A DNA stretch of 59,095 nt from assembly GCF_003316695.1 (NCBI RefSeq), contig NZ_PDKB01000016.1, positions 1 through 59,095 on the forward strand, written 5' to 3'. Each line of letters begins with the position of its first letter. Positions within the stretch are counted from its first letter, which is position 1. Below, one piece after another: positions 2,687-35,855 of the stretch. The notes below the pieces were generated by a model that worked only from the letters and a program-made list of their open reading frames with translations, made no database searches and had not been told where the DNA came from. A program made the position numbers and the translations under genes. The stretch comes from Aliarcobacter vitoriensis. GTDB lineage: Bacteria > Campylobacterota > Campylobacteria > Campylobacterales > Arcobacteraceae.

Positions 2687-3935
2687 AATATTTACCTTGA
2701 TAGAATCCAGAAAATAAAAGAATATCATCAGAGTTTTTGTTTTCTAAATTATTTACAATCAAATCTTTTAATATAGAAGCAAGAGCTGGACCAAATGTCA
2801 TTCCAAGCCATCCTAATCCCATTCCATAAATTAAATTTTTATATTTTTCGTCTCTTCCAATTAAAGGCATGTCATTGGGTGTTAATGGTCTAAAGCCAGT
2901 CCACTCAACTATATTTTTCATCTCAAAAGGAATAGTATATTTTTTAAAGTTTTCTTTTATACTTTCTATTTGTTTTTTTACTATTTTATGATTGGTAGAA
3001 CCTATTTCTAATTTTGATGTAATTCTTACATCATCTCTTCTTGGTGTCATAACAATAAATAAATCAGAAAATAGTGTTGATGTAATTGGTTGGAACTCTT
3101 TTGGCATATTAAAGGTAATACTATAGCCTTTTGCTGGAATCATCATAAGATTTTGTTTTAATTTATTTGCTAAATTAGTTTGATAACCAGTTGATAGGAT
3201 ATATGTATCAGCTTCATAAGTATTTAGAGTAGAACTAATTGATTCGATTTTTGTATCAGAATACGTAATATTTGAAATTCGTTCATTTAATATAAATTCA
3301 ACTCCATTTTCTTTTAAATATCTTTTTAGCTCTAATATAGTTCTTTTAGGATCGAAATGAGTATTTCTTTTAAAATGAATAGCTCCTTTTACATCATCTG
3401 TAACACAAGGTATAAAATCTTTAATTCTATTTTTTTCAATAACCTCAAAAATATCATCATTTTTAACTGCATAATCAAGTAGTTTTTTATTATAACTTTT
3501 TTGTTCTGTAAAAACTGATAACATACCTTTTCTATGGAAATCTAAATCTAGTCCATCAATTTTTTGCATATTTTCATAACTATTATTTGATATATGACCA
3601 TACTTTTCAAATAAAGCAAGGGTTCTTTTTAATCTATCTTTATTTGCACTATTGATAAATTTCCATAACCATTTATATATATTTATATCTAAAGTTGGAT
3701 GTATATTTACAGGTGATTCACCTTTAATCATAAGTTTTAATGTATTAAATACAATTCCTGGATTTGCAAGTGGACCTTTATCAAAAGCAGATAATAAACC
3801 TGCATTTCCAAAAGAAGTTGAATTTGTAATATCATGTTCATCTATAATTGTAACTTTTCTACCTACTTTTATAAGTTCATAGGCCGTAGTTAAGCCCATA
3901 ATTCCAGCACCAATTATTATAATATCTCGTTTCAT
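2685..3935 (-). CDS. dadA: D-amino acid dehydrogenase / glycine-oxidase-like FAD oxidoreductase
   Basis: A 416-residue FAD-dependent oxidoreductase of the DAO family. The N-terminus has the Rossmann fold signature GAGIMG followed by a TYEL-like helix and an acidic residue ending strand 2 (TIIDE). The C-terminal region has WTGFRPLTPNDMPLIG and GLGWLGMTFGPA, the FAD-contact segments of D-amino acid dehydrogenases. It oxidises D-amino acids (D-Ala in DadA) to 2-oxo acids and passes electrons to the respiratory chain at the inner membrane. Its AAGGAG ribosome site (3943-3948) lies partly in the 5-bp target duplication, so the prophage starts only 14 bp upstream of the ATG and its native promoter region is now at 38114 onward. 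A glycine oxidase or other DAO member is possible. Confidence 0.82.
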   Translation of the reverse strand: MKRDIIIIGAGIMGLTTAYELIKVGRKVTIIDEHDITNSTSFGNAGLLSAFDKGPLANPGIVFNTLKLMIKGESPVNIHPTLDINIYKWLWKFINSANKDRLKRTLALFEKYGHISNNSYENMQKIDGLDLDFHRKGMLSVFTEQKSYNKKLLDYAVKNDDIFEVIEKNRIKDFIPCVTDDVKGAIHFKRNTHFDPKRTILELKRYLKENGVEFILNERISNITYSDTKIESISSTLNTYEADTYILSTGYQTNLANKLKQNLMMIPAKGYSITFNMPKEFQPITSTLFSDLFIVMTPRRDDVRITSKLEIGSTNHKIVKKQIESIKENFKKYTIPFEMKNIVEWTGFRPLTPNDMPLIGRDEKYKNLIYGMGLGWLGMTFGPALASILKDLIVNNLENKNSDDILLFSGFYQGKY

Positions 3936-3944
3936 TTAATAACT

Positions 3945-3949
3945 CCTTA
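3945..3949. repeat. Prophage target-site duplication, left copy (CCTTA)
   Basis: CCTTA lies directly outside the left prophage terminus TGTGAA and is repeated directly outside the right terminus at 38109-38113. A 5-bp duplication is the standard product of Mu-type transposition. On the minus strand this copy supplies the first half of the dadA ribosome binding site. Confidence 0.93.
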
Positions 3950-4060
3950 TGTGAAGTATTGTTTAAAATGTAAGTAAAAGAATAAGAGGCTTTTTTTCTT
4001 AATTAGCCCTATTTAATGGTATTTATAGACCTTTTTACAATGCGGTTGTAGAAATGTAAC
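3950..4060 (+). repeat. Left prophage end with candidate transposase binding sites
   Basis: The terminal TGTGAA is followed at 3962-3974 by TTTAAAATGTAAG and at 4045-4060 by GTTGTAGAAATGTAAC. These resemble three sites at the right end (38013-38027 forward; 38062-38075 and 38084-38097 reversed) with the shared core AAATGTWA. Multiple spaced sites at each end are what a MuA-type transpososome needs. That the transposase binds them is inferred. Confidence 0.7.
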
Positions 4061-4139
4061 TGCATTAAACTTTACTATACAAACTCTTTAACAATATTTA
4101 ACACTGTTTTATACATATTATAGCATTAAATGATGATGA

Positions 4140-4279
4140 GTTTACCTACATACCTTTTTTATAAATAAGTAAGCGGTTGTAAAAGTATAGTAATACAACC
4201 TAGCAATACAACTAATACAACTTGAAGTAATACAACCTAATTTTTAAATTAAGTAGTTGTAAAAGTTAAGTAGGTAAAC
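4140..4279. repeat. GGTTGTA/TACAACC repeat array inside a 10-bp inverted repeat
   Basis: A perfect 10-bp inverted repeat, GTTTACCTAC (4140-4149) and GTAGGTAAAC (4270-4279), encloses copies of RGTTGTA on the plus strand (4175-4181, 4255-4261) and its complement TACAACY (4194-4200, 4207-4213, 4216-4222, 4231-4237). The CGGTTGTAA at 4174-4182 and a second CGGTTGTAG at 4043-4051 match the 9-nt unit of the hairpins at 13477-13664. It lies downstream of the repressor gene and upstream of the left terminus. It is probably a multi-site protein-binding region for transposase, enhancer protein or repressor; which one is unknown. Confidence 0.65.
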
Positions 4280-4285
4280 ATATGT

Positions 4286-4927
4286 TTATCTTTGAATACT
4301 TAAAACTTTTATACCTAATACTTGAAAAGGTAGTTGGTTTTCTTTTGGATTGAAAACTTCTTTATCATATTTGTCATTATCTGAAATAATAAGTATAGTT
4401 CCATCCATTTTAAATTGAAGTCTTTTTATGAGTATTTGTCCACCATATTGAATAGCATATATACCATTTGTACCAAAGTTTATATTTTCATCTATTAAAA
4501 CATAATCGCCATCTCTTAGAGTTGGCTCCATACTATCGCCATCTACTTGAATACCTTTAACTTTATTTGTATTTATAGGTGTTCTAAAAAAGCTTTTATC
4601 TAGTGAAATTGTATCTACCGTTTCTATAACATAGTTGTAAATTCCTTCTCCTGCACCAGCTCTAACATTTAATAAATCTATATTGTAATTGCTTGATATT
4701 AAATTTACATTATTTTCTTTAAATTTATTTCCTCTGCCTGTTAATAACCAATTTATATTAATATCTTCTTTATCACAAACTTCAGCAAATGTATCAGTTA
4801 AAGTTTTTTGATTTGTCAAGAAATTGTTTACAAGTTGTCTTGAGATATTGTATTTTTTTGATAAGAAAGCATTATTTATTCCTTTTTCACTCATAACTTG
4901 AGAAAATCTTTCACTAATTTTAGACAA
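4286..4927 (-). CDS. Phage repressor, HTH plus S24 (LexA/CI-like) peptidase
   Basis: 213 residues. The N-terminus (1-65) is an HTH domain of the CI type, with NISRQLVNNFL as recognition helix. The C-terminal S24 domain has the nucleophile in GDSMEP (Ser132) and the general-base Lys168 in LIKRL, 36 residues apart as expected, with an Ala-Gly pair at 90-91 as likely self-cleavage site. It should hold the lytic early promoter shut and be cleaved in a RecA-dependent way. It is divergent from the early operon, with palindromic operators in between (4953-5011). It is transcribed toward the left terminus with no strong terminator seen before dadA, so read-through into dadA is possible. Confidence 0.88.
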   Translation of the reverse strand: MSKISERFSQVMSEKGINNAFLSKKYNISRQLVNNFLTNQKTLTDTFAEVCDKEDININWLLTGRGNKFKENNVNLISSNYNIDLLNVRAGAGEGIYNYVIETVDTISLDKSFFRTPINTNKVKGIQVDGDSMEPTLRDGDYVLIDENINFGTNGIYAIQYGGQILIKRLQFKMDGTILIISDNDKYDKEVFNPKENQLPFQVLGIKVLSIQR

Positions 4928-6141: not shown

Positions 6142-8256
6142 GTGGAGTATACAGAGAAAAATTTAGTTGAATTTTTTAATATTTCACAACAATCTGTTTC
6201 AAAAGCACTTAAAGATACTCATTATGAACTAAAAATTATTGAAGGAAGTTTTAAGCCTGTAAAACACTATCAATTTGAAGATTTGCCTCAGAGGTATAAA
6301 GATAAATTAGTAGATCTTGGAGTTGTGCAAGATGATAAAACTGAAGATATAAAATCTTCTAATATTACACAATCAAATTTTACTGAAGTTTATTTGATGT
6401 CCAGTCCTATTAAACAAGAAATAGCACTTGCAAGATGTAAATTAATTAAATTTTATCTTATGCGAAAGTCTAATACAAATAGAATGAAGTGGCTTAAAGA
6501 GACTTTAAAAAATAATATAGAGTTTGATTGTTTAGGTAGTGTAACAGAACGTCAATTGAATATATGGCTTAGAAAATATAAAGAAGCAGAGATAAGTGGC
6601 AGTAATGTAGTTGAAATCTTTATAGATAAAAGAGGTGCTAGTTCAGGTGCTGGAATAAAAAGTTTAGATGATAAGATGAAAGAGGTAGCTATTGCTTATT
6701 TTATAAAAGATAGCATTATAAATATCTCTGAAATATATCTAAATATGAAACATAAGTTCGGTGGACTTATGCCATCTTATGATGTTTTGAATAGATTTTA
6801 TAGAGAATGGAAAGATAAAAATCCACTTATATATGAATTTTCAAAATCTCCTGATAGTGCAAAAAATAAATATATGCCAGCTTTCGGAAAAGCAGATGAA
6901 AAAGCTAAATATAAAAACCATTATTGGGAACTTGACTCAACTCCTGCTGATATTATTTGTTCCGATGGTAAGAGATATACAATCTTAGCCGCAATAGATG
7001 TATTTACAAGAAGAGTTGTATTTCATATAGCTGATAGTTCTAGCTCTTATACTATTTCACAACTTCTTCGAAAAGCAATTATAAAGTTTGGTATCCCTGA
7101 AAATGTGATTATAGATAATGGTAAAGATTATACATCAAACCATTTTATGAGTGTTTGTTATAACTTAAAGATAAATCCAATCATTGTACCACCATTTAGT
7201 GGAGATAAAAAACCACATGTTGAGAGAATATTTGGAACTTTAAGTAGACAGTTATTTATGCAAGTGCCAGGATTTATTGGAGCAAATGTAAGTCAAAAAG
7301 CACAAATTCAAGCAAGACAATCTTTTGCACAAAAGATTAATTCAATAGAGGCTTGGAGAAGGTTAAATGCTTCAAGAACTGATGAAGAAAAAAGGCTTAT
7401 AAAGGATGCTTGGAAAATCAAAAAAGAGAATTTAGGACTTAGATTGGAAGTTCTTAAAACAGCAGATGAATTGCAAGACCTTTGTGATAAATGGGTCTCA
7501 AATCTTTATGAGCAAGAAAAGCATGGTGGCTTAGGAATAAGCCCTGTGATGAAATGGAATAGATGTCCATTTAGTGTTAAGTCTATACCTAATACAAGTA
7601 TGTTGAATTTACTTCTTGGTGAAAGTATTACAAGAAAAGTAGGTAAAAAAGGTATTGCTCTTGATGGGCTTATGTATTGTCATGATGATTTAGTTGATTA
7701 CATGGGACAAAATGTATTTCTTCTTGTTCCTGATGATATGGGATATATATTTGTTCATCAAACAAATATGGAATTTATTTGTATAGCTGAAGACCCAGCA
7801 TATACTGGACAAAGTAGGTCAATGGCAAAAAGAGCAGCAAAGAAATGGAATGCACTTACAAAACATCTTGACAAAATGCTACATGAAGCTAAGAACTTGG
7901 CTGATATTACAATCATTGACAGAATTGAAGCTGTAAAAGATAGAGTTGAAACTCATACTATTGCAGTTACAAAACGAAGTGAAGTTATAGATGCTGTTAT
8001 TAAAAATACTCCAGTTATTGAAGCTGAAGATTTAAAAGCTTTAGAAAAGTCAAATAAATATGACTTCAAGAATAAAGATGAAGAGGGTAAACCACAAAAG
8101 GTTCTCGAGAGTGGAAGACCACAATTTAAAGGAAAAGTTGAGAGGTTTATTTGGATATTAGAAAATCCTGAACAAATGAATGAAAAAGATAAGGAACTGA
8201 TGGATAAATATCCAGATTTATATGAAATCGCAAAATCACAAGTAAAGGTAGGATAA
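6142..8256 (+). CDS. MuA-like DDE transposase
   Basis: 704 residues, close to the size of Mu A (663). An N-terminal winged-helix/HTH region (about 1-70, with SQQSVSKALK) would bind the phage ends. The catalytic RNase H-like core has Asp265 (ELDSTPAD), Asp325 (IDNGKDYTS) and Glu361 (HVERIFG), giving a DD(35)E arrangement. A C-terminal beta-barrel and tail follow. It would cut and join the TG...CA termini for integration and replicative transposition, giving the 5-bp CCTTA duplication seen at both ends. GTG start with GGAGG 7 nt upstream. The MuB-like gene follows after 3 nt. Confidence 0.95.
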   Translation: MEYTEKNLVEFFNISQQSVSKALKDTHYELKIIEGSFKPVKHYQFEDLPQRYKDKLVDLGVVQDDKTEDIKSSNITQSNFTEVYLMSSPIKQEIALARCKLIKFYLMRKSNTNRMKWLKETLKNNIEFDCLGSVTERQLNIWLRKYKEAEISGSNVVEIFIDKRGASSGAGIKSLDDKMKEVAIAYFIKDSIINISEIYLNMKHKFGGLMPSYDVLNRFYREWKDKNPLIYEFSKSPDSAKNKYMPAFGKADEKAKYKNHYWELDSTPADIICSDGKRYTILAAIDVFTRRVVFHIADSSSSYTISQLLRKAIIKFGIPENVIIDNGKDYTSNHFMSVCYNLKINPIIVPPFSGDKKPHVERIFGTLSRQLFMQVPGFIGANVSQKAQIQARQSFAQKINSIEAWRRLNASRTDEEKRLIKDAWKIKKENLGLRLEVLKTADELQDLCDKWVSNLYEQEKHGGLGISPVMKWNRCPFSVKSIPNTSMLNLLLGESITRKVGKKGIALDGLMYCHDDLVDYMGQNVFLLVPDDMGYIFVHQTNMEFICIAEDPAYTGQSRSMAKRAAKKWNALTKHLDKMLHEAKNLADITIIDRIEAVKDRVETHTIAVTKRSEVIDAVIKNTPVIEAEDLKALEKSNKYDFKNKDEEGKPQKVLESGRPQFKGKVERFIWILENPEQMNEKDKELMDKYPDLYEIAKSQVKVG

Positions 8257-8259
8257 AAA

Positions 8260-8964
8260 ATGCAACATAGATTTATAAAAACAACAAATTATATAGATTG
8301 TTTGGAAGCTATGAAAGAACTAGAAAAACTTCCAAGAGATATGGAAAAAATGGGGCTATTTTATGGAAATGCTGGAAGAGGTAAAACTTTAATTATAGAA
8401 AAAATAGCAATAGATGAAGGTGCTGCATTAGTAAGAACATTGGGAAGTTGGACACCAAAACAGATGATGATAGATATATGTGAAGCTTTGGAACTTATGG
8501 ATACTGGAACTACTGCAACTTTACAACATAGAATAATAGATGAACTTACTATGAATAAAAGAATACTTATCATAGATGAAGTTGATACTTTATTTATGAA
8601 TGGAAAGAAACAACTACTTTTAATGATAAGGGATATACATGACTTAGCAAAAACTCCAATTATATTAACTGGAATGGAACAATGTGACAAAATGTTCAAA
8701 AGAGACACTCACTACTATGAGAGGTTTTCAAGAAAAGTAAAAATGGGAGATACAACAAAGCATGATATTAAACAACTTTGTTTAAATTCTGATGTTGAAA
8801 TAGAAGATGATTTAGTAGAACATTTCTTTAATAAATATGGAAATTTTAGACCCGTAAAAGTATTGATTAATGCTTTAGAGGAGTATTGTGAAAACAATGA
8901 TTTACAAAGTGCTAGTTTAAATACTTTTAAATCAAGTGGTGTGGAAAAAATAAATGCAAAATAA
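8260..8964 (+). CDS. MuB-like AAA ATPase, transposition target selector
   Basis: 234 residues. Walker A is GNAGRGKT (36-43), Walker B is LIIDEVD (about 102-108), and LTGME (about 127) looks like a sensor segment, as in the AAA-type MuB/IstB/ExeA group. It lacks Mu B's long N-terminal HTH extension (Mu B is 312 aa). It would bind DNA in an ATP-dependent way, choose targets and stimulate the transposase. It is tightly linked to the transposase gene and overlaps the next gene by 11 nt, so translation of the group is coupled. Confidence 0.92.
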   Translation: MQHRFIKTTNYIDCLEAMKELEKLPRDMEKMGLFYGNAGRGKTLIIEKIAIDEGAALVRTLGSWTPKQMMIDICEALELMDTGTTATLQHRIIDELTMNKRILIIDEVDTLFMNGKKQLLLMIRDIHDLAKTPIILTGMEQCDKMFKRDTHYYERFSRKVKMGDTTKHDIKQLCLNSDVEIEDDLVEHFFNKYGNFRPVKVLINALEEYCENNDLQSASLNTFKSSGVEKINAK

Positions 8965-10203: not shown

Positions 10204-10239
10204 TTATTGAGTGCTCAAAAAATATATAAAAGGAGATTT

Positions 10240-10896
10240 ATGCCAACAGTAAATGAAAAAGGTATGTGGCGAAATAAAGAAGGTGATTTTATCCATCCTG
10301 ATATGATAACACCTGATAAGCAGCTTGAAGATGAAGTTGTGGAGAAACTAATAGATAGTGCAATAGTAGTACAAAATAGAATGATTAACTTTAAAGCTAA
10401 AGCTTTTGAAGAGTGTTATGGGTTTGTAGATCTACTTCGACAAAAGTATGATATGGAAAGAATAACTTCAAGAAGTGGAGCTGTTACATTAAAAAATTTT
10501 GATGGAACAAAGGCAGTTGAGATACAAGTTGCAAAGCTTATATCTTTTGATCAAAAATTATCTTTAGCAAAAGAGAAAATAGATGAGTATTTAACTTTAA
10601 AAACAAATGGAGCTGATGCAGAGATACAAACTCTTATAACTAGAGCCTTTGATGTGAAAAATGGAAAAGTAGATGCAAAACAGATACTTAGTCTTAAATC
10701 TTATCCTATATCTCATGAGCTTTGGAAAGAAGCTATGAGTATGATAGATGATGCAATAGAGATAGTTGGTACAAAAAGCTATATAAGATTTAAACATAGA
10801 AAAAATGGTGAAGTAGATGGAAGTTTGGAGCATATAGTTTTAGATTTAGCTGGACTTGAAATACCAACAGAAGAGGCTAAAGATGACAATATCTAA
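10240..10896 (+). CDS. DUF3164-family phage protein
   Basis: 218 residues from the ATG at 10240, which has AGGAG 5 nt upstream; an in-frame GTG at 10207 has no ribosome site. The opening (GMWRNKEGDFIHPDMITP) followed by a long helical region matches the DUF3164 family of Mu-like phages, usually found in the early operon near the transposition genes. The molecular role of the family is unknown. It overlaps the endolysin start by 14 nt. Confidence 0.75.
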   Translation: MPTVNEKGMWRNKEGDFIHPDMITPDKQLEDEVVEKLIDSAIVVQNRMINFKAKAFEECYGFVDLLRQKYDMERITSRSGAVTLKNFDGTKAVEIQVAKLISFDQKLSLAKEKIDEYLTLKTNGADAEIQTLITRAFDVKNGKVDAKQILSLKSYPISHELWKEAMSMIDDAIEIVGTKSYIRFKHRKNGEVDGSLEHIVLDLAGLEIPTEEAKDDNI

Positions 10897-11804: not shown

Positions 11805-12006
11805 AGAGATAAAAGTAATATTCAAAAAAGAAAATTTACTTAGATTTAAACAAGAGTGGATGACAGCTAAAACAGATGAAATAGATTGTGTAGTTTGTAG
11901 TGAACTTGAAGGTACAAAATTACAAATTATGATTAATGGAGATAGTTATGTTGCAGATGTAGCAGATATAGCAAATGATTTAATAGAAAAAGTAATTTCA
12001 AAATAA
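11797..12006 (+). CDS. Hypothetical phage protein (69 aa)
   Basis: No family is recognised. It is a short mixed alpha/beta protein with two Cys (VVCSE near residue 34) and an acidic C-terminal helix. It overlaps the preceding gene by 8 nt. A stem-loop follows its stop. Confidence 0.5.
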   Translation: MDKEIKVIFKKENLLRFKQEWMTAKTDEIDCVVCSELEGTKLQIMINGDSYVADVADIANDLIEKVISK

Positions 12007-12012
12007 TTTCAT

Positions 12013-12033
12013 AGAGCACTCTTTGAGTGTTCT
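12013..12033 (+). terminator. Stem-loop after small early genes
   Basis: A 9-bp stem AGAGCACTC/GAGTGTTCT (12013-12021 with 12025-12033, one G-T pair) with a 3-nt loop. No strong T tract follows, so it is an attenuator or RNA-stability element at best. Confidence 0.45.
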
Positions 12034-12058
12034 ATTGAGATTATTAATAGGAGGGAAA

Positions 12059-12289
12059 ATGAAAAGTATAGCTTGGTATGTTTTAAAAGACAAAATATTT
12101 AAGCTTGAGGAAAAAATATCTTTATTGAAGAACTTTTTATATCAAACAAAAGAACACATTTTGGAATTGGAAGACAGGCATACAACTAGTAGCCGTAAAG
12201 ATGATTTAAAAAAGTATGCAAAATGGTTAAATAGAAAGATATTGATATTAAAGTTAAGAAAGGTAAAAAATGAACATACTAACAGTTAA
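12059..12289 (+). CDS. Hypothetical basic helical phage protein (76 aa)
   Basis: The start is the ATG at 12059 because it follows an excellent GGAGGG site; the frame can be extended to 12023, but through the stem-loop above. Almost all helical, with a heptad-like stretch at residues 12-40 and a lysine-rich end. No family is recognised. It overlaps the next gene by 20 nt. Confidence 0.55.
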   Translation: MKSIAWYVLKDKIFKLEEKISLLKNFLYQTKEHILELEDRHTTSSRKDDLKKYAKWLNRKILILKLRKVKNEHTNS

Positions 12290-12575
12290 TACAGGCAATG
12301 AAAAACTAGATGAAGCTTATAAAAGGATGCAAATACATATTTGCACCTATGATAAGGTTGATGAGTTTATGAACTACTTTAGAACTATCACAAAAGATAA
12401 AAAGGAGGATGAACTCTTAAAATGGCTTTTAAAAGTTTTATTTTGGGAGTTTAAATATGGAAGAGTTGATAAAAAACACGATTTTGATTTATTGCTTGAG
12501 AAAGTTGGAACAGCAAAAAAAGAGCAACTAGAAAAGTGGCTAAAAGATAATTTAGAAAAGGTTGAAAATGTTTAG
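12270..12575 (+). CDS. Hypothetical helical phage protein (101 aa)
   Basis: No family is recognised. An amphipathic helical protein rich in Trp, Lys and Glu (LLKWLLKVLFWEF near residue 50). AAAGGT lies before the ATG. It overlaps the ATPase gene start, so it probably forms one translation unit with it. Confidence 0.5.
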   Translation: MNILTVNTGNEKLDEAYKRMQIHICTYDKVDEFMNYFRTITKDKKEDELLKWLLKVLFWEFKYGRVDKKHDFDLLLEKVGTAKKEQLEKWLKDNLEKVENV

Positions 12576-13476
12576 TTTTTTAAATGGAAGTATTTTAGAA
12601 CAAAAAGATTTTATTTTAGAAGATAGAAAAGCTTATATAAAAGATTTTCTTTATTCTAATAATGTTTTACTTATCTACTCTCCACCAAAACAAGGTAAAA
12701 CATGGCTAGGATATGGAATAACTACAACACTAGCTAAAAGAGAAGATATAAGAGCTATTATTTATGTAGATATGGATAACAGCTTATCTTCTTTAAATGA
12801 AAGAGCAATAGATAATAAACTGATAAATATACCTAAAGTTAGATATGTGAGTCGTGCTAAGACTGATTGTTCACCTCTTGAGTATCTTAAAAAAATAGAT
12901 GATGAAGCAAAAAGAGATAACTATAAAGATGTTGTATTTGTACTAGAAACTACAAAAGATTTTGTGGATACAGATAGTAAAAGTCAGTCTGAAGAGTTTA
13001 TGAAGATAGTGATGAGAATGAGAGATGCAGGTGCAACAATTATAATAATGCACCATGCAACTAAAACTGGTAAAACTATCTCAGGAGTTCAAGTATTTAT
13101 AAACTCTCCTGATAATGTATATGAGATGACTCAAAAAGCAAAAGAGACTGATAAACTACATTTTATGCTAAATGTAACTCACTCAAGAACTTTGGTAAAA
13201 GATATAGGGCTTACAGTTTCTACACAAACACTAGAACTTGAAAAGCTTGATGAAGTATATGCAACTATGAGCGAATATGAAGAGAGCTTTGTAAGAGCTG
13301 CAAAAGGTGTTTTAGAAAATAACCCTAATGGTCTTACTAAAAAAGAGCTTCTAGAAATGCTAGGATATGAGAAAAATGACAATACAGCAAACGATACTAT
13401 CAATAAATATAATGGTAAATTTTGGGAATGCAAACAAGAAAAAAAAGGCAAACCTTACAATATATCACTTTTATAG
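12568..13476 (+). CDS. RecA-fold AAA ATPase (AAA_25/RepA-like)
   Basis: 302 residues from the ATG at 12568. Walker A is SPPKQGKTW (Lys44, Thr45), Walker B-like is VVFVLETTKDF (about 120-130), and IIIMHHATKTGK (about 151-162) matches the third motif of RepA/RAD55-type hexameric ATPases. The C-terminal ~60 residues look like a winged helix (GLTKKELLEMLGYEKNDNTANDTINK). Such proteins act as replicative or loader helicases, or as primase-linked ATPases on plasmids and phages. Mu itself has no such gene at this place. The covarying 9-nt-repeat hairpins begin directly at its stop codon, so a recognition relationship is possible but unproven. Confidence 0.75.
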   Translation: MFSFLNGSILEQKDFILEDRKAYIKDFLYSNNVLLIYSPPKQGKTWLGYGITTTLAKREDIRAIIYVDMDNSLSSLNERAIDNKLINIPKVRYVSRAKTDCSPLEYLKKIDDEAKRDNYKDVVFVLETTKDFVDTDSKSQSEEFMKIVMRMRDAGATIIIMHHATKTGKTISGVQVFINSPDNVYEMTQKAKETDKLHFMLNVTHSRTLVKDIGLTVSTQTLELEKLDEVYATMSEYEESFVRAAKGVLENNPNGLTKKELLEMLGYEKNDNTANDTINKYNGKFWECKQEKKGKPYNISLL

Positions 13477-13664
13477 TACTACTGCTACGACCGTTACGAC
13501 CGCCACAAATAAAGCCCTAGAATAGGCAGTCGTAGCAGTCGTAACGGTCGTAATAAATAATAAATCAAAACTATTATTTAAATTAATAAAAACTGCTACC
13601 ACCGTTACAACCGCCTAAATATAAGCCCTATAAATGGCAGTTGTAACGGTGGTAACGGTTGTAG
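13477..13664. repeat. Two tandem long hairpins built from 9-nt units (covarying)
   Basis: Hairpin 1 has arms 13477-13504 and 13525-13552 (28 nt, 22 Watson-Crick plus 2 G-T pairs) and a 20-nt loop. Hairpin 2 has arms 13592-13615 and 13636-13659 (24 nt, 21 Watson-Crick pairs) and a 20-nt loop. Both loops contain AAGCCCTA. The right arms are three consecutive 9-nt units each (13527-13553 and 13638-13664) with consensus CRGTNGTAR; the left arms carry the same units inverted. Between the copies, two paired positions change together (G-C to A-T, and G-C to C-G). There is no T tract, so these are not ordinary terminators. They lie between the AAA ATPase and gemA genes. Confidence 0.9.
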
Positions 13665-13699
13665 TAAAAATGATATAAAATTTAATCAAAGGATAAAAC

Positions 13700-14110
13700 A
13701 TGACACAAGCACAACTAACATATAAAAAAAGTCTTATTCAAAAAATACAGATAGTTAAACATAATGTATTTTTTGATGATGAGATGAGAAAAGAGTTTAT
13801 GCTCTCTCGCTTTGGAGTTGATAGCACTACAAAGCTAAGTATAGATGAACTAAAACTACTTTTAGATTTTTGCAATAGAAATGTAAGTGATATTCCTATG
13901 CTTAAAAGAGATACAAAAGAAGTTTACAAAATAACATTTGCACAAAAAGAGAAAATAGGAGTTATTTGGCAAGAAAAGGCTAGAGATAAAAGTGATAAAG
14001 CTTTGCTTCAATTTGCTTGTAAAATAGCAAGATACAAAGCTTTAAGACTAGATGACTTTACAGTTTTTGAATCACAGGATATTATTACTGCTCTTGAGAG
14101 GATGTATTAA
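13700..14110 (+). CDS. GemA-like protein (Mu gp16 family)
   Basis: 136 residues. The opening KKSLIQKIQIVKHNVFFDDEMRKEFMLSRFGVDS, followed by LSIDELKLLLDFC, follows the GemA/DUF1018 pattern (helical repeat plus a small-residue SxxxLSxxEL motif). In Mu, GemA is an early/semi-early protein that modulates host gene expression and DNA topology; the biochemical function is not settled. AAAGGA lies before the ATG. It follows the double hairpin and is the last rightward gene before the defence-like cargo. Confidence 0.8.
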   Translation: MTQAQLTYKKSLIQKIQIVKHNVFFDDEMRKEFMLSRFGVDSTTKLSIDELKLLLDFCNRNVSDIPMLKRDTKEVYKITFAQKEKIGVIWQEKARDKSDKALLQFACKIARYKALRLDDFTVFESQDIITALERMY

Positions 14111-14121
14111 TTTATTCTTCT

Positions 14122-15390
14122 TTATAAAGTATAGTTTTTTGCAACATCTTTTGGAGAATAATCTAAGATAGCTAATTTAGTATCTATCTTATTTAAATAG
14201 TCTGACGGTTCTTTTTTTAATAATTGTAAATATTGCTCAAGTTCTTCATTGGAAAAATATTTATAAAAATCTAAGTATTTATATTTATATTCATGCTGAT
14301 TATTTTTTTTGTTTTCTGGTGAACCTATTTCACTATTTATTTTATCTTGAATTTCACTATTTATTTTATCTTGAATTTCACTACTTAATGATTCTACTAT
14401 ATATTTATTTTTTATTCCAAAAGCTTTAATATCATATATTGATTTATAAAAAATATACTTAAAAAATTCATTCTCTTTTTCAATATTTAAGTGCTCTAAA
14501 AATTCAAATTCTTCTATAAGAAGTTTAAATCTTGTTGAGCCAATACTAGCACTACAATGATAAAATAAAAGTTTTAATTCTTTAGATGAAAATTGAGCTC
14601 TAAATAGATCCGAATATTTCCTTTTATCTTCTATTTCATTAGTTGATATAAATTTAAGTATCTGATATATATTTCCAAAATAATGTCCTATAATATCTGA
14701 ATAACATTGATGAATAAGATCATAAATTAAAGTTGGTTTTCTATTTTTATTGAATGAGTTGGTTTTAGATTTATTTTCGATAAAGTCATCAATATTATTA
14801 CAAATTTTTTCTATAGAATCCCTACCAAAAATTGATGTATTTGACTCATTATTCCTTTTTATTAAATCAAATTTTATTGTATCATGAGGAAAACCATTAA
14901 TGACTTCTGTTTCTGAAACATAATCTATGAAATGATTTCCAAACCTCAAATTATTTACTATTTCATTGTGTAACCTTATCATATTAAAAAAAGTGTTTTC
15001 AAAATTTTGTAGTTTTATGGAATTACTTTGTTCTCTTAAAGCTTCAGCTGAGTCTTTTGTTGCTTGTTTAGTTTCACTCAGCTCTTCTCTTGTAAGTGAT
15101 AGTTCTTTTTGTTGTAGTATTATAGTCATTAAAAGTGCCATAAATGTGCAAAATGTTAAAAGTGGATTTATCATTCCACCGAAAAAGTCTCCAAATGCTC
15201 CTAATTTATCAATATCATAAAGACAAATAACTAAAATAAGTTCAATTAAAAATATAGATCCAATAATACATAAAGCTATAATAAAAATATAAAATAAACT
15301 TTTTCTTGTTTTTCCTTCATCATTTAATGTATTAGATAATTTTGAATAGATTTTATCTAAAAAATCTAGGTCTTTTTTATTTTCTTCCAT
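14122..15390 (-). CDS. AbiC-like membrane protein (putative phage abortive infection family)
   Basis: 422 residues. Two membrane helices (about 31-58 and 66-92) are followed by a coiled coil (about 93-125), then a cytoplasmic domain containing NTFFNMIRLHNEIV, FGRDSIEKI, HYFGNIYQILKFI, YSDLFRAQFSSKELKLLFYHC and STRFKLLIEEFEFL. These ordered motifs match the putAbiC family (PF16872), associated with abortive infection. It starts 3 nt after the stop of the TIR-like gene, so the two form one leftward operon. A 24-bp tandem duplication near the C-terminus repeats SEIQDKIN. It probably acts as a membrane effector or partner of the TIR-like protein; that pairing is inferred from the operon. Confidence 0.78.
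   Translation of the reverse strand: MEENKKDLDFLDKIYSKLSNTLNDEGKTRKSLFYIFIIALCIIGSIFLIELILVICLYDIDKLGAFGDFFGGMINPLLTFCTFMALLMTIILQQKELSLTREELSETKQATKDSAEALREQSNSIKLQNFENTFFNMIRLHNEIVNNLRFGNHFIDYVSETEVINGFPHDTIKFDLIKRNNESNTSIFGRDSIEKICNNIDDFIENKSKTNSFNKNRKPTLIYDLIHQCYSDIIGHYFGNIYQILKFISTNEIEDKRKYSDLFRAQFSSKELKLLFYHCSASIGSTRFKLLIEEFEFLEHLNIEKENEFFKYIFYKSIYDIKAFGIKNKYIVESLSSEIQDKINSEIQDKINSEIGSPENKKNNQHEYKYKYLDFYKYFSNEELEQYLQLLKKEPSDYLNKIDTKLAILDYSPKDVAKNYTL
14327..14383. repeat. 24-bp in-frame tandem repeat in the AbiC-like gene
   Basis: Two exact copies of a 24-bp unit (14327-14350, 14351-14374) are followed by 9 more matching bases. The unit encodes SEIQDKIN on the minus strand. Because 24 is a multiple of 3, copy-number changes would alter length but not frame. 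Confidence 0.85.
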
Positions 15391-15393
15391 GAT

Positions 15394-16203
15394 TTATCCT
15401 ACTAATAAATTTAAGTCTATTGTATATCCTGCTGTTCGAAGTTCTTTTGCTAAAGGTAAATGCCAAGAACCATTATTATCCATATGTGTATAAACCACTC
15501 CACTTATGTCCCCTGGTGTTTCAATACTTCCTTTAACCAATGGACAAACTTTATCTCTTCCTAATAATCCAATTAAATAACCATGTTCAAATACCACATT
15601 TTGTCTAGCTCTTGATTGAAGATTATCTTTATCTTTACCTCCAATATCACAAGCTGTATATAAAACAACTCCAAAACCAACTTCTCCTGCGTAAGATTCA
15701 ATTTTTTCAATAATAGTTTTTTGACTACTTGCTTGTTCATGTAAAATGATAGGTTCTAAGCCTAATTTTTCTAAAAATCTAGCGACCTCTTGTTTTGCTC
15801 CATTATCATGTCCATGTACTATAAACACTTTATTTGAATTACTTGTATTAATTATTTGCTTAGGCTTATTATCTTCTATAACATCATCATCCCATTCTTC
15901 AACTTCTTCAATAAATGATTCAATTAATCCTTCCGCATTTAATCTTTGTTTCATATGGTGATTAAAAAATACTTCATTTTTAACTTCTGGTATAAGATAA
16001 CCGTTAGTTTTATATTCAAATTGTATATCAATAAAATCAGTTGATTGTCCATTTATATTTTCAAATATTTGCTCAATATATCTTTTTGATTTTCTTAACC
16101 ATTTATTGAACTCATTATTATTGCCATTAAATTGATATTGAGGTAACTTCTTTAGTTCTTGAATTAAAGAATTTAATTTTTCTAATGCTTCAATCTTTGT
16201 CAT
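15394..16203 (-). CDS. TIR-like nucleotide-binding protein (PF10137-type), candidate defence effector
   Basis: 269 residues. The N-terminal ~110 residues are a helical/mixed domain of unknown role. Residues 125-265 form a TIR-like domain of the predicted nucleotide-binding (PF10137, CAP12/Pycsar-effector) type: KVFIVHGHD (125-133), LGLEPIILHE (Glu156), QKTIIEKIE, VVLYTACDIGG, RARQNVVFEHGYLIGLLGR (198-216) and AGYTIDL. Members of this class can hydrolyse NAD+ when triggered. No nucleotide cyclase gene is adjacent, so the trigger is not a classic Pycsar/CBASS one. It is the first gene of a leftward two-gene operon with the AbiC-like protein and has its own promoter divergent from mor. Confidence 0.83.
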   Translation of the reverse strand: MTKIEALEKLNSLIQELKKLPQYQFNGNNNEFNKWLRKSKRYIEQIFENINGQSTDFIDIQFEYKTNGYLIPEVKNEVFFNHHMKQRLNAEGLIESFIEEVEEWDDDVIEDNKPKQIINTSNSNKVFIVHGHDNGAKQEVARFLEKLGLEPIILHEQASSQKTIIEKIESYAGEVGFGVVLYTACDIGGKDKDNLQSRARQNVVFEHGYLIGLLGRDKVCPLVKGSIETPGDISGVVYTHMDNNGSWHLPLAKELRTAGYTIDLNLLVG

Positions 16204-35072: not shown

Positions 35073-35855
35073 ATGCAAAAAACAAAACTAAAAGCCCCAT
35101 TTGGTTGGGTAGGTGGTAAAACTCAACTTGCTCCTGATATTATAGAACTTATTCCACAAGAACATAAAACTTATATTGAAGTTTTTGGAGGAGCAGGAAG
35201 TGTACTTTATCAAAAAGAACCAAGTAAACTTGAAGTGTTTAATGATATAAATAGTGAACTTATAAATCTTCATAGAGCTATTAGAAATAATCCACAAAGC
35301 TTATCTATATATTTAAATGATTTACTTATCTCAAGAGATATTTTTAATGCTATAAAAACTAAGCATTTAAGAGGTAGAAATAATATAGAAAAAGCAGCCT
35401 TTTACTTTTATCAACTTACCCAATCGTTCGGAAGTAAAGGTGATAACTTTGCTATGTCTGCAAAGTCAGGACGAAAACCTAAAAATATTTATAGAAACTT
35501 TAAAACTATAAGTGAAAGATTAAAGTTTGTAACTATTGAGAATATGAGCTTTAATAAGCTTATACCATTATATGATAAAGATGATGCATTCTTCTATGTA
35601 GACCCACCTTATGTATCAACTGAAAGCTACTATAAAAATACGGGAGGTTTTGGAATAGCAGAACATGAAGAGTTAGCACAACTGTTGTCAAATATAAAAG
35701 GTAAATTTTTATTGAGTTATAACGATAGTGTAATAGTTCGAGAGTTATATAAAGGCTTTAATATTAGAAGTACAAAAGAGATAAGATATACTCTTGGAGC
35801 AAATATGCATGGTAAAAAAAAGAGTGTAAATGAGGTGTTTATAACTAACTACTAA
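35073..35855 (+). CDS. DNA adenine methylase, D12 class (Dam-like)
   Basis: 260 residues. Motif X is GWVGGKTQL (near residue 8), motif I is EVFGGAGSVL (about 33-42) and catalytic motif IV is DPPY at 177-180, the order of alpha-class N6-adenine methyltransferases. Target sequence unknown (GATC is the family's best-known site). No restriction gene accompanies it, so it is an orphan methylase that could shield phage DNA or regulate expression. AAAGGA lies before the ATG, after the late terminator. Confidence 0.9.
   Translation: MQKTKLKAPFGWVGGKTQLAPDIIELIPQEHKTYIEVFGGAGSVLYQKEPSKLEVFNDINSELINLHRAIRNNPQSLSIYLNDLLISRDIFNAIKTKHLRGRNNIEKAAFYFYQLTQSFGSKGDNFAMSAKSGRKPKNIYRNFKTISERLKFVTIENMSFNKLIPLYDKDDAFFYVDPPYVSTESYYKNTGGFGIAEHEELAQLLSNIKGKFLLSYNDSVIVRELYKGFNIRSTKEIRYTLGANMHGKKKSVNEVFITNY

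Follow-up and report, generated by a model that had tools for sequence, protein, structure and literature searches.

The window, by which we mean the whole 59,095-nt stretch of Aliarcobacter vitoriensis DNA that was analyzed, holds a Mu-like prophage in which the gene of a RecA/KaiC-fold ATPase is followed directly by an array of 9-nt repeats. We consider it probable, from comparison of related loci, that these repeats are cognate iterons read by the C-terminal winged helix of the ATPase encoded just upstream, and that together they would form a specificity cassette placing several ATPase subunits. The ATPase gene (12568–13476, forward strand, 302 aa) belongs to PHROG 6357 (phrog_6357, E 2.4e-68), a family annotated as of unknown function, and stands downstream of genes for a MuA-like transposase (6142–8256), a MuB/TniB-like ATPase (8260–8964) and a DUF3164 protein (10207–10896). 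It is followed by gemA (13700–14110, forward strand; Pfam GemA 38.7 bits, cut-off 27), and in many relatives, too, a gemA-like gene lies close downstream of the ATPase. Genes for a putAbiC protein and a CAP12/Pycsar-type TIR protein, which are probably anti-phage cargo, lie on the opposite strand between gemA and a mor-like gene named by eye (14122–16203); by eye, too, a similar-looking gene stands behind gemA in locus L309, and a Dam-like DNA methyltransferase gene (35073–35855) lies near the right end of the prophage.

The stop codon of the ATPase gene occupies 13474–13476 and the first 9-nt unit starts at 13477, which bears out the statement of the first-pass annotation that two adjacent hairpins begin exactly at this stop. 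The two inverted arrays, with three units per arm, span 13477–13552 and 13588–13663. The left arm of hairpin 1 (13477–13503, minus strand; the plus strand reads TACTACTGC TACGACCGT TACGACCGC) is followed by a spacer containing TAAAGCCCTA (13504–13525) and by a right arm of three direct units, GCAGTCGTA GCAGTCGTA ACGGTCGTA (13526–13552, plus strand). Hairpin 2 has a left arm made of a degenerate outer unit and then TACCACCGT TACAACCGC (13588–13614, minus strand), a spacer containing TAAGCCCTATAAAT (13615–13636) and a right arm of three direct units, GCAGTTGTA ACGGTGGTA ACGGTTGTA (13637–13663, plus strand). The earlier count of 12 CRGTNGTAR units holds exactly for 10 of them and fails for the other two, and the core GTNGTA is found in 11 of the 12 and is missing from the outer left unit of hairpin 2. 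The array had also been described as richer in GC than its surroundings, and indeed the 43% GC of positions 13450–13549 is the highest among the 100-base windows of 12000–15000. Among the loci fetched, paired side-by-side hairpins occur in the window's lineage only (the window/L040, and G025 = L035), and L041 has a single hairpin although its ATPase is 95% identical to that of the window. A ~2.6-kb insertion splits the ATPase gene in G025:C1:79319-82819 (L020, L035), and both hairpins are present behind it.

The AlphaFold2 model of the window ATPase (pLDDT 90.9) consists of a RecA-type core at residues ~20–228 and a C-terminal winged helix at residues 229–302 (13252–13473, plus strand), a domain assigned from the secondary structure of the model, from matches to winged-helix proteins and from co-variation with the iteron core described below. 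Helix 272–280 occupies the recognition position of the modeled winged helix. The nearest PDB folds of the core are RadA, KaiC, RecA/RAD51 and DnaB-type ATPases, as exemplified by RadA 8rxc (Z 18.6, rmsd 3.9, 204 aligned) and G40P 3bh0 (Z 17.5, rmsd 3.5, 205 aligned); identity among the matches listed is 7–14%, and the alignments stop near residue 230, leaving the winged helix uncovered. Neighbors of the core among viral models are primase-helicases and AAA proteins. When modeled alone, the C-terminal domain is again winged-helix-like and resembles many winged-helix proteins at Z 8–9, with no match at Foldseek E ≤ 0.001 and no preferred family. In the Pfam scan, AAA_25 was the one domain found at E ≤ 0.001, its score of 21.3 bits lying below the gathering cut-off of 27, and no RepA_N domain was seen; AAA_25 is matched at E ≤ 0.01 by all 14 members of set A1.

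Searches with the ATPase and its profile gave relatives in 19 of 100 related genomes, in viral loci (13 at first and 79 later, when the best 80 of 94 were kept), in 4 genome contigs and in 24 of 104 family genomes. Removal of duplicate stretches left 103 loci, of which 80 have a strong profile score and enough DNA, and counts over these 80 include close relatives; named relatives come from Arcobacter, Sulfurimonas and Campylobacterales. For each locus, tandem triples in a 180-base segment around the ATPase stop were compared with 100 shuffles. At period 9 the triples beat all 100 shuffles in 47 of the 80 Mu-type loci, and at lags 5–8 and 10–15 this happened in only 0 to 6 of the 80. With arrays called at a triple score of 19/27 or a six-unit score of 90, a threshold that is not clean since shuffles occasionally score 19 to 21, 52 of the 80 loci have an array around the ATPase stop, 5 have one at another gene end in the DNA compared and 23 have none. 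Weaker or changed arrays below the threshold can be seen by eye in L019, L039, L073, L086, L090, L092 and L095. Of 53 array calls, 44 have GTTGTA as their majority core, followed by three variable bases; the seed used for phasing the units, GTTGTAACG, favors likeness to that core.

Period, position and core persist across ATPases down to ~30% identity, which is hard to reconcile with a repeat that arose by chance or by mutational expansion and has no function. The array locus is also the sole long match in its host genome. Tandem repeats do arise easily, and the bare pattern of three spaced GTTGTA occurs in at least 120 viral stretches, including very regular repeats without the ATPase; even so, a functionless origin seems to us scarcely credible. 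The bare pattern failed as a diagnostic for the array, the ATPase being encoded in the DNA compared for 4 of those at least 120 stretches, among the matches listed. Its exact form is present in 7 of 104 family genomes, as compared with 1 for the reversed control.

A covariance-model search of relatives, which the first-pass annotation had proposed as a check, gave matches to the hairpin model (R1) in 15 of 104 family genomes. A match abuts the ATPase in 10 of the 10 family genomes with a Mu-type ATPase (≥297 bits); three of these contributed sequences directly, and viral loci with the same hairpin represent at least two others. In four genomes the matches are all weak (no higher than 33.4 bits), and a single additional weak match is present in each of G000 and G004. 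G123 has a further match, beside a prophage remnant that retains, of the ATPase gene, only the coding end of the winged helix, with the hairpin ahead of a gemA-like gene (L309, ~6970–7234). A triple lies inside the 3' end of the ATPase gene in the Helicobacter prophage record L154, and in Campylobacter phage CAM-P21, which has the ATPase, nothing clearly exceeded three shuffles in 18.5 kb of its 39.7 kb. Phage searches with ATPases of relatives lacking the opposite arm returned the same two Campylobacter/Helicobacter records only. By eye, 9-nt repeats such as GATAACNNN or ACAACNNN are present at or near the 3' ends of distant RecA-type ATPase genes of other elements (L025, L029, L030, L031, L142); among 21 distant loci, 3 exceed every shuffle at lag 9, and 0 or 1 do so at other lags.

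In these loci the repeat, more than the hairpin, is the conserved feature. In window-like phages, three TACAAC units are separated from three GTTGTA units by a spacer that often contains AAGCCC. Many relatives lack the opposite arm and show three direct GTTGTA-type units, some of them overlapping the stop codon (examples are L083, L101, L102, L112 and L119–L122), and L087, L089 and L093 have one left and three right units. The first-pass annotation stressed the compensatory changes in the hairpins, and two both-sided changes between hairpins 1 and 2 are present as it described (in alignment A4, columns 17/69, G-C to C-G, and columns 26/60, G-C to A-T). Its statement that pairing was kept fits hairpin 1 poorly, however, because within that hairpin the facing units are less alike (21/27) than the non-facing ones (24/27). 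Over 32 loci whose six-unit score is at least 90 (L079 left out), facing units are 78.2% identical as compared with 75.5% for non-facing units (p 0.025). For the variable triplets the values are 54% vs. 50% in 28 of these loci (p 0.08; L028, L070, L074 and L120 fell out) and 56% vs. 49% in 18 non-redundant loci (p 0.007).

These measurements bear directly on the alternative that the element is a structured RNA, with the hairpins acting in the transcript as an attenuator, a stability element or a control of gemA translation. The 251 nt of the array region fold at −81.3 kcal/mol, as compared with −39.5 (sd 4.1) in 200 shuffles (z −10.3), and no shuffle folds as low. When 19 hairpins are aligned, in-register pairing is found in 82.1% of cells, with a covariation of 0.181, and the in-register structure exceeds 500 of 500 column shuffles on all five measures. 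The better in-register pairing of the variable triplets in the non-redundant loci also agrees with an RNA, as do two further observations, namely that the arrays of several phages stop just ahead of the ribosome site of the next gene (by eye) and that G108 carries a perfect hairpin of related design and different sequence at the stop of a MuA-like gene (L310, 3905–3977), despite having no ATPase match in its genome. Yet structures slipped by one unit pair nearly as well (77.2% and 77.5% of cells, covariation 0.106 and 0.167, above 494 to 500 of the shuffles), and with the many direct triples that lack an opposite arm this weakens the hairpin as the functional core. Both the pairing and the apparent compensatory changes are mostly accounted for by identity among the repeat units, and the covariance model also scores 64–66 bits on the opposite strand. 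Scans for known signals also speak against the RNA reading: a search of Rfam with permissive limits returned 13 matches up to E 5, every one under its gathering score and none near it, and 0 intrinsic terminators (a stem and then a T run) were found in 13300–13800, where shuffles gave 0.3, in keeping with the earlier remark that the hairpins lack T tracts. Since the sequence of the units moreover follows a predicted DNA-binding helix, as described next, we regard a structured RNA as unlikely, and a weaker, secondary constraint on the hairpin is possible.

A link between the winged helix and the array favors the iteron reading. Across 30 non-redundant loci (from 53, after thinning at 90% identity and with L065 left out as a false array), the distance between iteron cores correlates with the distance between recognition helices when the ATPase-core distance is held constant (partial Mantel 0.48, p 0.002 in a permutation that does not model the tree), and the raw correlation of the iteron core with the ATPase core is just 0.14. 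The helix motif D.[TS]A[RN], which was picked after the sequences had been inspected, is present in 49 of 57 loci with an array and in 5 of 22 without one (79 of the 80 loci, L020 with its interrupted ATPase being left out). The difference is retained after thinning at 90% identity (28/35 vs. 5/19, p 3e-4) and at 70% (16/23 vs. 4/16, p 0.0095); it is not significant at 50% (7/12 vs. 2/8, p 0.20) and borderline at 40% (3/5 vs. 0/6, p 0.06). Deviant cores were also tallied by hand against deviant helices (4/5 vs. 6/25, p 0.03), a result that is not part of the main evidence.

Locus L051 is a mosaic whose breakpoint falls at the domain boundary. Its ATPase core (3001–3700) is 97–100% identical to that of L047 and 46–68% identical to that of L017, and its winged helix and hairpin (3701–4000) are 92–97% identical to L017 and 66–73% identical to L047; positions 4001–4400 are mixed, and the sequence is L047-like again from 4401. 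The same type of ATPase core can thus carry either of two combinations of winged helix and array, and judged from these sequences the two parts behave as one exchangeable specificity cassette. The first-pass annotation had offered iterons of an origin or partition-like site, a cruciform recognized by the ATPase and a structured non-coding RNA as options. Iterons recognized by the ATPase are the part of this list to which the period of 9, the covariance-model matches, the co-variation, the helix motif and the mosaic point, and a reading with the hairpin and its compensatory changes as the core has lost ground.

We also considered that the array might duplicate, inside the prophage, the repeats of its left end, which would be sites for MuA or a repressor. 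Positions 4170–4265 are probably the left end of the window's prophage, and this segment and the left ends in L288–L294 share a framework, GCGGTTGTAAAAGTA, combined with repeats. Four AATACAAC repeats in the window's left end share the hexamer core of the array, as do the left-end repeats of G021, G022 and G025, and AATACAAG appears in one of the three left-end blocks of G048:C7. At first look the left-end repeats and the array therefore seemed to be one motif, an identification that was dropped on comparison of eight left ends. A 4-base word of the left-end repeats changes in concert between phages (TACA, GTAA, TGTA or TATA), and the left ends of G048:C7 and G025 each have three tandem blocks with their own word in each. 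Four of the eight left ends carry a different word although their hairpins keep GTTGTA units (G006 with AAGTAAACC, G057 with AATGTAACT, G123 with AATATACCC, and the other two blocks of G048:C7), so that the left-end and array systems look separate. The window's left-end repeats, furthermore, are spaced at 13, 9 and 15. We accordingly find an origin of the array in the transposition machinery very improbable.

A reading with more to recommend it, which we hold tentatively, is that the array is an operator or activator site through which the ATPase or another regulator switches gemA/mor and the late genes without taking part in replication. It overlaps with the cognate-iteron reading if the ATPase is the binder. 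In its favor, G048:C24 and G116:C34 have a second array (L285, 8201–8254, and L286, 8432–8485; reverse-complement, ATPase orientation) that separates divergent portal-terminase-like and scaffold-capsid-like operons (gene names by eye), the array of L237 lies ~5.4 kb from its ATPase, and gemA follows the array in many phages. On the other hand, promoter-like sites in 13300–13800 are at chance level (3 vs. 2.6 in shuffles), the gene after the array is by eye neither gemA nor mor in L076, L079, L080 and L082, and the ATPase core resembles helicases and recombinases. Hairpin 2 contains one of the promoter-like sites, which lies on the minus strand. We considered a −10 box in the spacer and abandoned it because the spacers are, by eye, not uniformly promoter-like. 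By eye, too, the phages with the second array have an Ogr-like zinc ribbon gene after gemA.

Under the preferred reading of the array as cognate iterons, the basic site would be three direct 9-bp iterons, each GTTGTA (GTNGTA in the window) plus three variable bases, to which window-like phages would have added a second triple in inverted orientation, and the hairpin would exist because the second triple is inverted relative to the first. The winged helix of each ATPase subunit would read the iterons, and several subunits may dock side by side on the array. Such docking might nucleate a ring or filament at one place in the phage genome, much as an initiator does at its iterons, and from there the ATPase could open or remodel DNA or control the neighboring genes. 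As to the output of the bound ATPase, our first guess, which is itself tentative, is replication by initiator-like loading; the second is transcription, with the ATPase perhaps serving as a gene switch.

Textbooks present transposable phages as the prime example of replication that proceeds by transposition and not from an origin. The Mu-like phage described here seems to possess an additional control site that is self-addressed, and this raises the question of whether some Mu-like phages have an internal start or switch site. It is conceivable, although we would not yet count on it, that the Mu-like phages of this lineage have a second self-addressed DNA-processing system, in which an initiator-like ATPase with an exchangeable cassette builds an internal nucleoprotein complex that serves either as an origin-like entry for the replisome or as an assembly point coupling transposition to the early-late switch. 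PHROG 6357, whose members apparently have an address of their own on phage DNA, gains a first testable job, and the linked, exchangeable winged helix and repeat offer a compact model in which to follow changes of DNA-binding specificity.

Among known systems, plasmid iterons are repeats that lie near the gene of their binding protein, and the satellites SaPI and P4 likewise have iteron-type replication origins. For a further satellite, the PLE of Vibrio cholerae, the portions of the published accounts consulted describe RepA as a RepA_N protein and semi-palindromic repeats of ~30 bp (PMC7145576; PMC8263062). The iteron origins of plasmids and PLE and the array in the window are alike in that short repeats are paired with a DNA-binding protein encoded by the same element, which is a prediction in our case. 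The window differs from PLE in its 9-bp units, its RecA/KaiC-fold ATPase and its setting in a phage with MuA and MuB, and PLE RepA was set aside as a model because it belongs to another protein family. RSF1010 RepA and the AAA_25 ATPases have the RecA-type ATPase fold in common with the window protein, which differs from the AAA_25 family in scoring under the Pfam cut-off and in having a predicted C-terminal winged helix. To our knowledge RSF1010 RepA has no such C-terminal domain; its absence from the 50 PDB matches listed for the full ATPase model excludes nothing. The resemblance to RadA, KaiC, RecA and DnaB-type ATPases is likewise one of core fold, with the winged helix outside the match.

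Phage Mu itself has internal sites, namely the enhancer and the strong gyrase site, and the array resembles these in being an internal cis site in a transposing phage. We know of no period-9 array among the Mu sites, and a search of the open-access literature found no publication describing an array of this kind in Mu-like phages, in agreement with the first-pass annotation, which knew of no such element in Mu. AMLP1, a Mu-like prophage of Arcobacter butzleri with MuA and MuB, is described with no report of such a repeat in the portions of its publication consulted (PMC2147049); judging from its IMG number, L050 would be this prophage. Repeat arrays that belong to an initiator are known, and what would be new here is their occurrence in Mu-like phages, as an inverted pair and together with an uncharacterized RecA/KaiC-fold ATPase.
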